From positions 64,601 to 114,002 of the forward strand of contig JAUSEN010000025.1 of assembly GCA_030650025.1 (NCBI GenBank): DNA of 49,402 nt. Reading direction: 5' to 3'. The stretch comes from Candidatus Magasanikiibacteriota bacterium (lineage in GTDB: Bacteria > Patescibacteriota > Patescibacteriia > Magasanikbacterales > GWA2-37-8). The position numbers were made by a program, and so were the translations under genes. The notes beneath the pieces were generated by a model, which was not told where the DNA came from, ran no database searches, and worked only from the letters and a program-made list of their open reading frames with translations. Positions 19,530 to 24,425 of this stretch are shown here, piece after piece (the first letter of the stretch is position 1; every line of letters begins with the position of its first letter).

Positions 19530-19919
19530 TTATTTTAACCAATCTTTAATAGACTTTGGCCAGCCGAGCATAAGGAGTAGCGCGAGTGGCGCTCCCCAGT
19601 TGGCAAAACGCTCGATAAAGTCCCACACCGGCAACCCCACGAGCGGCCGGACGAGCGCAGTCCAAAAACCCCAAAACGCTGCCCAGAGGAGTATTGCCCG
19701 AACCGGCCGTACGAGCACTACAACTGCCACGAATACATCTAAGATACCAACCAACGTAATCAGACTCGCGGCAGTTTCGAAGCTGGCCCCCGTGAGCATT
19801 GAAGTCCATTTTATCCAATCGGCCTTGCCCCCTAAGGCAAACATGGCATGGCCAAAAAATTCTCCGGCTACGGCGACGCGTAGCACCCATTCAATTTTTT
19901 TTGAGTTTTCCCACGGCAT
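19530..19919 (-). CDS. DoxX-like small membrane protein
   Basis: 129 aa, four hydrophobic stretches, LRVAVAGEFFGHAMFALGGKADWIKW start typical of DoxX-like proteins. Confidence 0.55.
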   Translation of the reverse strand: MPWENSKKIEWVLRVAVAGEFFGHAMFALGGKADWIKWTSMLTGASFETAASLITLVGILDVFVAVVVLVRPVRAILLWAAFWGFWTALVRPLVGLPVWDFIERFANWGAPLALLLMLGWPKSIKDWLK

Positions 19920-19956: not shown

Positions 19957-20661
19957 TTAGGCGCGCACGGCCACGTGTGGAATCACGCGCCGAAATTTGG
20001 TTGCAATCTCTTCCATTTCATCAACACTAAATGGGTGAAAAGCGCCAAACGCGGCCGCCAGCGTAATGCCCGGGCGGAATTGTTGCAAAAAAAATCGCTT
20101 AGCGCCGGCGAGCTCCTCTTGCATGGCTGTAAGTAGTATATCAGAATGTACCTCTTTAATTAAGGTGGCGCGAAACTCGTACTCAACATCACTATTTTTT
20201 AAGAGTTCCCGGCTGGCGGCGATTTTTTCGGCTACCGCGAGAGGGCCAACGAGCGCGGGGTAAGCGCTGGCGCTGGTTTTATAATCCATGGCGATATAAT
20301 CCAGCGCTCTGGCGGCCAAAGCCGCGCGCAAAAATTCCGGTCTGTTACCATTGGTGTCGAGCTTTACTTTAAACCCTAAATTTTTTATTTTTTTTAAAAA
20401 TTCCAGAAGGTCTGGTTGTATAGTGGGCTCGCCTCCGGAAACCACCACTCCGGTCAAAAGCCCGCGGCGCGACTCTAAAAAATTTAATATCGCTGTTTCG
20501 GGAATAAAATTATTTTTTATTTTGGCGAGGAGCTCGGGCACAACAAACTCGGGGTTGTGGCAATAACCGCAACGAAAATTACACCCGGCCGTAAAAATAA
20601 TGGCGGCAGTTTCGCCGGGGTAATCGAGCATGGTAAACGGCTGGATGCCGGAGATTAACAT
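19957..20661 (-). CDS. nrdG: Anaerobic ribonucleoside-triphosphate reductase activating protein (radical SAM)
   Basis: GCNFRCGYCHNPEFV (CxxxCxxC), SGGEPTIQPDLLEFLKKIKNLGFKVKLDTNG. Confidence 0.88.
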   Translation of the reverse strand: MLISGIQPFTMLDYPGETAAIIFTAGCNFRCGYCHNPEFVVPELLAKIKNNFIPETAILNFLESRRGLLTGVVVSGGEPTIQPDLLEFLKKIKNLGFKVKLDTNGNRPEFLRAALAARALDYIAMDYKTSASAYPALVGPLAVAEKIAASRELLKNSDVEYEFRATLIKEVHSDILLTAMQEELAGAKRFFLQQFRPGITLAAAFGAFHPFSVDEMEEIATKFRRVIPHVAVRA

Positions 20662-21510: not shown

Positions 21511-21538
21511 TACCCTGACAATGTCGGGGTATTTTTTT
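21511..21538 (+). terminator. Rho-independent terminator after tRNA-like RNA
   Basis: taccctgacaatgtcggggtattttttt. Confidence 0.7.
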
Positions 21539-21734
21539 AGCAGACGGCCCCAACCGCGGCCGCCTGATACCGCATAATAAACTGCGAATTGGCAGCCGCC
21601 ACCGCCGTAAAATGCTTGCGGCTATAGTGCTCGCTCTTTTTGCCAATATTAAAGTGCGAGACTGGGCGGTGGTAGCCCATCACCCGGGTCCAGACCTCGC
21701 AACGAGTTCGCTGTTTTGTTGAACAGTCTTCCAT
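21537..21734 (-). CDS. Detached glycyl-radical/C-terminal domain of class III anaerobic ribonucleotide reductase
   Basis: MEDCSTKQRTRCEVWTRVMGYHRPVSHFNIGKKSEHYSRKHF... matches the NrdD tail (RVxGY glycyl radical motif); separate from the main nrdD ORF. Confidence 0.75.
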   Translation of the reverse strand: MEDCSTKQRTRCEVWTRVMGYHRPVSHFNIGKKSEHYSRKHFTAVAAANSQFIMRYQAAAVGAVC

Positions 21735-23745: not shown

Positions 23746-23764
23746 AGGCTGTTATTTAAAAATA

Positions 23765-23792
23765 AAAAACTCACTAGGAAGTGAGCTTCGTG
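23765..23792 (-). terminator. Terminator/attenuator between the Com-like gene and nrdD
   Basis: Minus strand CTCAC-ttccta-GTGAG-TTTTTTATTTTT. Confidence 0.6.
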
Positions 23793-23815
23793 AGCTTCAG
23801 TAAAATTTAATAAAA

Positions 23816-24031
23816 TTATTTAGTGGCCATTGCTAACTGCTTTTTGGCCGGAGCCACCCGATGCGGGCAGGGCAGGATGGCGCAAAGCATGGCGTTAAAT
23901 TGCGACTGCTTTATGGTAGTGAAAGCGTGGCAAGACTTGCACTTTACTTCTACTTCGCCTTCGGCTAGCCAGCCGCGAAATAAAAGTTTTTTACAGCCGC
24001 TACAGCGGTATTCTTTATAAACAATGCCCAT
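23816..24031 (-). CDS. Com-like zinc-ribbon protein (Mu-like prophage Com family resemblance)
   Basis: EYRCSGCKKLLFRGWLAEGEVEVKCKSCHAFTTIKQ. Confidence 0.7.
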   Translation of the reverse strand: MGIVYKEYRCSGCKKLLFRGWLAEGEVEVKCKSCHAFTTIKQSQFNAMLCAILPCPHRVAPAKKQLAMATK

Positions 24032-24048
24032 AGGGCCAAGCGGTTAAG

Positions 24049-24064
24049 ACACTATATGTAGTGT
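24049..24064. promoter_or_regulatory. NrdR box 1
   Basis: ACACTATATGTAGTGT, near-palindromic match to the NrdR box consensus. Confidence 0.75.
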
Positions 24065-24080
24065 TAATTTTTAATTTATA

Positions 24081-24096
24081 ACACAATATATAGTTG
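24081..24096. promoter_or_regulatory. NrdR box 2
   Basis: ACACAATATATAGTTG, centred 32 bp from box 1, the usual tandem arrangement. Confidence 0.7.
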
Positions 24097-24182
24097 TACG
24101 CAAATATTATACCACACTTCCACCAATTAAGTTATCCACAGGAGAAAGTTTAAAATTATAATAAATAATTTTGAATTTTTTT

Positions 24183-24211: not shown

Positions 24212-24239
24212 TGCCCTGGTTACCAAGGAGGATTAATTG

Positions 24240-24425
24240 ATGCGAACGCGACTGGAAGACGGATACTGGTGGTGCGACTTGTGCGGGGACTGGAACGACC
24301 CTGTACAGCCGCAGACTGACGCTCGTGGCAACGTGCAGTGCGCGTGCTGCGACGCCTACAACGGGGAGAGTGTCGCAACGATGCCTACCCCAAAACTGGC
24401 CGCACCCGCGGCGGCCACGGCCTAA
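24240..24425 (+). CDS. Small GC-rich zinc-ribbon-like protein
   Basis: Strong SD aaggagga; MRTRLEDGYWWCDLCGDWNDPVQPQTDARGNVQCACCDAYNGES... with two Cys pairs. Confidence 0.7.
   Translation: MRTRLEDGYWWCDLCGDWNDPVQPQTDARGNVQCACCDAYNGESVATMPTPKLAAPAAATA

Follow-up and report, generated by a model that had tools for sequence, protein, structure and literature searches.

The nearest known system to the one described here is, in our best reading, com/mom of phage Mu, of which the present locus would be a variant acting on a bacterial housekeeping gene. Com has so far been studied as a curiosity of phage Mu and as a partner of RNA aptamers. Common to both systems are a small zinc-ribbon protein with a CCCC site that is encoded directly upstream of its target, an RNA site of the form GA-N4-C-N2/3-GA-N4'-C with a 4-bp hairpin (here called the com-box), and a hairpin with CNCAC/GUGNG arms, inhibitory in Mu and predicted to be so here, that this site abuts or overlaps. 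The Patescibacteria gene differs in being chromosomal and in having nrdD or a DoxX-like gene as its target, whereas the Mu target is a DNA-modification gene. The com-box of Patescibacteria also lies outside the com ORF, downstream of a promoter that is predicted to be under NrdR control, and the hairpin that follows it bears a U-tract and is distant from the start codon, whereas the second hairpin of Mu holds the mom start. Mu Com is known as a translational, not a transcriptional, activator; in Patescibacteria a putative terminator would replace the translation-inhibiting hairpin of Mu.

Two further systems invite comparison. In antiterminators of the LicT/SacY type, an intrinsic terminator takes its 5' arm from the 3' part of a short antiterminator hairpin. 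The com-box of Patescibacteria likewise shares its 3' part with the 5' arm of a terminator-like hairpin, a likeness to LicT/SacY and ANTAR systems alike, but the Com-like protein is a zinc ribbon of 60-75 aa in which no sensor domain was recognised. It is unrelated to CAT or ANTAR RNA-binding domains, neither of which was found in it (zinc ribbons were the only matches), and the form of its site is that of Com. The promoter region resembles bacterial NrdR regulons, with tandem boxes at three helical turns beside the promoter of an RNR operon, and differs from them in that the first gene of the operon encodes a Com-like protein.

The window is the whole 49,402-nt stretch of Candidatus Magasanikiibacteriota DNA that was analysed. 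On its minus strand, an extended -10 element is followed by two NrdR boxes, the Com-like ORF, nrdD, a glycyl-radical ORF, nrdG2 and a DoxX-like gene (Table 1). The order of boxes, Com-like gene and nrdD is that of the original prediction and is borne out by profile matches at these coordinates; the extended -10 that had been proposed near the boxes is indeed read there. The nrdD product, an oxygen-sensitive enzyme that supplies DNA precursors, scores 977.9 bits against PRK08270 (NCBIfam) and 571 bits against NRDD (Pfam), and its ORF contains neither an ATP-cone nor the glycyl-radical motif. The DoxX-like protein of the window has no Pfam match itself; its gene stands 3' of nrdG in the window, L048 and L052. 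Just upstream of the com promoter lies a divergent ORF of 62 aa (24237-24425, plus strand) with a CxxC..CxxC pattern and AAGGAGG ahead of it, for which profile searches gave no family match.

Table 1. Features of the Com-like/nrdD operon, in window coordinates and in the order of transcription.
Feature	Position	Strand	Basis
Extended -10 of the operon promoter, TGG-TATAAT	24106-24114	-	Direct reading of sequence
NrdR box 1, promoter-proximal, CAACTATATATTGTGT on the minus strand	24081-24096	.	2 mismatches to ACACWATATWTWGTGT
NrdR box 2, ACACTACATATAGTGT on the minus strand	24049-24064	.	1 mismatch to ACACWATATWTWGTGT
Com-like zinc-ribbon gene, 71 aa	23816-24031	-	PHROG 6417; Zn_ribbon_Com in relatives
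com-box GA-AGCU-C-AC-GA-AGCU-C, predicted Com-like binding site and antiterminator hairpin	23783-23798	-	
Intrinsic-terminator-like hairpin GAAGCUCACU-UCCU-AGUGAGUUUU and U-tract	23755-23789	-	Terminator scan, folding energy, covariation
nrdD, class III ribonucleotide reductase core, 614 aa	21901-23745	-	NCBIfam PRK08270, Pfam NRDD
Small ORF, 65 aa, with NrdD glycyl-radical motif RVMGYHRP	21537-21734	-	TIGR02487 positions 528-580
nrdG2, activating radical-SAM enzyme	19957-20661	-	TIGR02495, 181 bits
DoxX-like membrane protein	19530-19919	-	phmmer 3.7e-55 to the com-box-linked gene of L057

NrdD itself appears to be split: its main ORF stops past the zinc site, and a separate small ORF downstream carries the glycyl-radical motif RTRCEVWTRVMGYHRPVSHFN. 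This arrangement runs throughout one NrdD clade with varying frame and spacing of the small ORF (the window, L046, L047, L058, L064 and L070, and the relatives L080, L082-L093 and L097-L102). In the other Com-associated NrdD clade the motif is fused (RIVGYFRP in an ORF of about 710 aa), and a second split is possible in L079 and L095 (RVVGYLRP). No report of a split NrdD was found in the literature searched.

We hold with great confidence that the two boxes are NrdR sites, with NrdR binding and repression inferred. This assignment is supported by position, spacing, shuffles, the presence of nrdR and the co-variation of boxes and nrdR across Com-nrdD genomes. Both predicted boxes were confirmed in place, with 32 bp between their centres and thus a 16-bp spacer. 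The optimum measured for four NrdRs is a spacer of 14-17 bp (PMC12051234), so the spacing counts as support. A motif scan found no other close pair, either in the window or elsewhere in the 1.03-Mb genome (10 matches on both strands at two mismatches or fewer, 4 of them from these two palindromes, against 2 for a control pattern), and none of 150 dinucleotide shuffles yielded an equally good pair within 200 nt before the Com-like gene. Either the lack of an nrdR gene in the genome or the lack of box conservation in relatives would have refuted the prediction, and neither was found. An NrdR with Zn ribbon and ATP-cone is encoded at L002:1456-1908, adjoining ftsZ (TIGR00244, 167 bits against a cut-off of 124.65), in a genome that also has NrdB and a class I NrdA with two ATP-cones. 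Tandem boxes at a spacing of 32-33 bp lie upstream of com in eleven Com-nrdD loci, each reached by at most 1 of 150 shuffles, and in L046, L047 and L058 a -10 resembling that of the window precedes the first box by 8-12 nt.

Across Com-nrdD loci, boxes and nrdR are both present in 10 cases and both absent in 10; the exceptions are L038, with boxes and no detected nrdR, and L073, with nrdR and no boxes (Fisher p = 3.5e-4). Because the loci have common ancestry, this p-value is indicative only. In addition, the nrdR of the L046 genome was read across two pieces with one internal stop, and L072 was scored as having neither from the region upstream of com alone. Strong tandem boxes were also seen ahead of nrdD in relatives without a Com-like gene (L086, at -383 from the nrdD match, L087, L090 and L076). 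Before nrdAB in the window's genome there is no close box pair at three mismatches or fewer. Upstream of nrdA (L022:4225-4330, minus strand), two ACTAnnnnTAGT palindromes, ACTACCGGTAGT and ACTAGATGTAGT, lie about 33 bp apart and are possibly weak NrdR boxes missed by the consensus scan. Our literature search found no report of NrdR in Patescibacteria.

At the level of sequence, the resemblance of the first gene product to Com is real. The window protein matches PHROG 6417, annotated as translational regulator, at E = 1e-5 and Pfam Zn_ribbon_Com (PF10122) at 17.4 bits, below the curated cut-off of 22.9, and all 13 of the 13 Patescibacteria relatives tested match Zn_ribbon_Com at E of 0.01 or less (best 5e-9). 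The cysteines C10-x2-C13 and C31-x2-C34, together with C50 and C55, are invariant (alignments A2/A4), and all six have cysteine counterparts in Mu Com, the alignment spanning the entire zinc ribbon. An AF2 model shows a short beta ribbon with a four-strand core (residues 11-40 at pLDDT 82-92); a fold search with this model against the PDB returned nothing below E = 0.8, and tblastn of the window protein against phage records gave no match at E of 1 or less.

The Com-like gene is sporadic, being detected in 10 of 95 relatives by single-sequence search and, by a profile search of the whole phylum, in 6 of 192 genomes. A species-wide scan recovered 28 Com-like loci, all of them Patescibacteria by title or placement or from bacterial MAGs, and spanning Magasanik-, Uhr-, Kerfeld-, Giovannoni-, Lloyd- and Buchananbacteria among others. 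The proposed check for Com-nrdD synteny across CPR comes out positive within Patescibacteria, although most genomes lack it and some of the loci have no NrdR boxes. This last observation indicates that NrdR control and Com control would be separable layers. Certain Com-like genes (L063, L065, L066 and L067) lack a com-box and have neither nrdD nor a DoxX-like gene beside them, so that other roles or unseen targets must exist for the Com-like family. For Patescibacteria, the literature search turned up no report that brings together Com-like proteins and nrdD or NrdR.

The intergenic RNA that separates the Com-like gene from nrdD reads GA-AGCU-C-N2/3-GA-AGCU-C, which is a 4-bp hairpin with the loop C-N2/3-GA. 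The first trace of this element was GAAGCTC-N2/3-GAAGCTCAC, common to the five com-nrdD intergenic regions compared. Across 381 genomes of the class, the pattern GAAGCTC-N-GAAGCTCAC has 11 sites, of which 10 fall in the gap from a Com-like gene to nrdD, and a reversed-pattern control has 0; with all sources pooled, the com-box is present in 22 nrdD leaders of Com loci and degenerate in one more. The background of the com-box form is one non-element match per about 215 kb. A plain direct repeat of GAAGCTC can be ruled out in favor of a hairpin, because AGCU is self-complementary and four loci pair with other letters. From AGCU/AGCU in most loci, the stem changes with pairing kept to AACC/GGUU (L069), AGCC/GGCU (L052, with a longer loop), GACU/AGUC (L062) and AGUC/GACU (L132). 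In alignment A3, 96 of 96 stem cells are paired and three of the four pairs are altered on both sides, against 3-51% in slid controls. The bases GA, C, GA and C are invariant, and the hairpin alone amounts to about -3 kcal/mol. No known Rfam family came near threshold for the com-box. Pattern matches in L044, L104 and L094 fall inside coding sequence and were set aside as chance.

The invariant bases coincide with those seen in Com footprints and SELEX. The Mu Com site is GAAUGCCUGCGAGCAUC with the GA dinucleotides as the footprinted bases, SELEX with a Mu-like Com gave the motif GAGNNCC-N2/3-GAGNNCC, and the Com-bound core is CC-N2/3-GAG within a hairpin loop (PMC6483171). Written out, the Mu target is GA-AUGC-C-UGC-GA-GCAU-C. 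A single form, GA-[4-bp stem]-C-N2/3-GA-[stem']-C, describes the new element as well as the Mu site and the SELEX motif. Six of seven phage com-target junctions have this form 32-59 nt before the target start (Mu, JD024, UMP151, B3, Moraxella Mcat5 and Phipami28), where chance gives 0-10 per 2000 shuffles each, and their stems differ again from those of Patescibacteria; the form is absent from the junction of phage Chuche. UMP151, Phipami28 and B3 are near-copies at the junction, leaving about four independent phage cases. In several Pseudomonas, Moraxella and Escherichia phages (L107-L111), com stands ahead of a DNA adenine methylase or unnamed gene and not mom, and the leaders behind com mostly have com-box-form sites. 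That the Com-like protein binds com-box RNA is very likely, an inference made without binding data.

Protein and RNA element also occur together. A com-box is present in 4 of 4 nrdD leaders of relatives with an adjacent Com-like gene (5 of 5 counting the window) and in none of the 22 assessable nrdD leaders without Com among 95 relatives. These counts are not independent, as the loci share ancestry. The com-box motif is also short. On the NrdD tree, the Com label takes 8 changes by parsimony, at least 3 of which are forced, and the association is therefore not one event; L087 and L090, the sisters of L046 on this tree, have neither Com nor com-box. Genome G309 has two com/com-box/nrdD cassettes. 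The window's genome has a single com-box by pattern and by covariance model (next match E = 0.58), and no trans targets of Com were found in it by these searches. The only targets seen other than nrdD are DoxX-like genes, in L057, L059, L061, L068 and L071, which suggests that the DoxX-like gene is a second, membrane- or redox-related target of the same device. These five loci have no NrdR boxes.

The 3' repeat AGCU of the com-box doubles as the 5' arm of the hairpin GAAGCUCACU-UCCU-AGUGAGUUUU, which in the window is worth -11.1 kcal/mol and is followed by a U-tract. In 19 of 22 nrdD leaders, an overlapping hairpin is followed by a 10-nt stretch with 7 or more U; three leaders with a com-box (L046, L069 and L073) have no convincing one. 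Over 24 loci this second helix is 92.8% paired, with both-side changes in three pairs. The com-box hairpin and the terminator-like hairpin are mutually exclusive through their common AGCU arm, and both helices covary. Together with the U-tract, this mutual exclusion indicates a terminator that binding of the Com-like protein would prevent. Transcription termination is probably the step controlled, although there are no transcript data and antitermination is inferred. In the window, no inhibitory hairpin contains the nrdD start codon, and the GUG of the arm is out of frame. That this GUG is the true nrdD start, as in mom, was considered and rejected, its frame not being conserved.

We lean towards two layers of control, NrdR at the promoter and Com-like antitermination at the com-box before nrdD. 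At high (d)ATP status NrdR, encoded elsewhere in the genome, would bind the tandem boxes shortly after the -10 and so repress the promoter. Transcripts would yield the Com-like protein first and then meet the intrinsic terminator ahead of nrdD. The Com-like zinc ribbon may bind the com-box hairpin with its loop C-N2/3-GA. Since the terminator uses the 3' half of the com-box as its 5' arm, binding would stabilise the com-box hairpin and prevent the terminator. RNA polymerase would then enter nrdD and go on into the glycyl-radical ORF, nrdG2 and the DoxX-like gene. As the terminator would be relieved by the Com-like protein, nrdD would be made only after that protein accumulates, and the outcome could be a feed-forward delay or threshold, as from com to mom in phage Mu. 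It is likely that the net effect is activation of nrdD, a direction that we infer in the absence of expression data.

It is possible that the Com-like protein acts on translation, as com/mom of Mu is regulated translationally (PMC6483171), with the second hairpin hiding the nrdD ribosome-binding region, the protein opening it and the U-tract being incidental. The arm ends 9 nt before the nrdD start in L070 and L073, where action could be translational, and abuts the DoxX-like start in L068, and L029, L036 and L038 have the 3'-arm GUG in the nrdD reading frame. Translational activation nonetheless seems unlikely to us: the distance from the arm to the nrdD start ranges from 9 to 115 nt and is mostly over 20 (24 nt in the window, 115 nt in L060), most starts lying 20-50 nt beyond the hairpin, no consistent Shine-Dalgarno sequence is found inside the hairpin, and the GUG frame reaches a stop in the window, L034 and L039. 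The conserved feature is the U-tract, not the GUG frame.

Antitermination before nrdD must also be weighed against readings in which the com-box does not serve nrdD at all. The com-box begins 4-31 nt after the com stop codon in most loci and could be an autoregulatory or 3'-end element of the Com-like gene, limiting synthesis or stabilising the mRNA, with nrdD merely downstream. We regard this as improbable because it is the target that the box accompanies. In L060 the box adjoins nrdD although com is 290 nt away; in L072/L132, where two antisense genes lie between com and nrdD, both com-box and hairpin keep their place immediately ahead of nrdD. These arrangements indicate that the box belongs to the target and that the protein can act in trans. 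In L059 the box is ahead of the DoxX-like gene and com is downstream, every com-box found precedes nrdD or a DoxX-like gene, and the phage boxes precede their targets too. NrdD has its own Zn site and requires a maturation partner, and the Com-like protein has two further invariant cysteines, so that it could be a zinc ribbon that does not bind RNA and aids NrdD by folding, metal or reductant, the hairpin being an ordinary terminator between two units. Under that explanation it is hard to see why the first GAAGCUC repeat and the loop GA are invariant, as a terminator needs neither, or why the com-box is seen only with Com and in an independently selected Com-binding form; com-box-linked Com-like genes without nrdD exist as well (L057, L061, L068 and L071). 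We consider it very improbable. Of the two roles in RNR originally suggested for the Com-like protein, expression is strongly supported by the com-box in the nrdD leader, and assembly has no support.

A speculative and rather doubtful proposal, any signal being inferred, is that the Com-like protein also does the sensing, through a cysteine-rich metal site that responds to oxygen or thiol redox state. If it were true, the glycyl-radical RNR, and elsewhere the DoxX-like membrane protein, would be expressed only when able to work, and the device, derived from a phage regulator, would switch between aerobic and anaerobic RNR at the RNA level in a genome that encodes aerobic NrdAB as well.

To our knowledge, gene regulation in Patescibacteria, which are tiny and parasite-like, is almost unknown, and the boxes considered here make up the first predicted NrdR regulon in the phylum. 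The natural Com-RNA pairs with their co-varying stems would be of use for the unsolved Com-RNA structure, and they offer a testable case of control passing from translation to transcription by the exchange of one hairpin for another. If confirmed, this would be a Com-RNA pair on cellular chromosomes that governs DNA-precursor synthesis in Patescibacteria, and a long-known phage regulator would gain a housekeeping role in cells.
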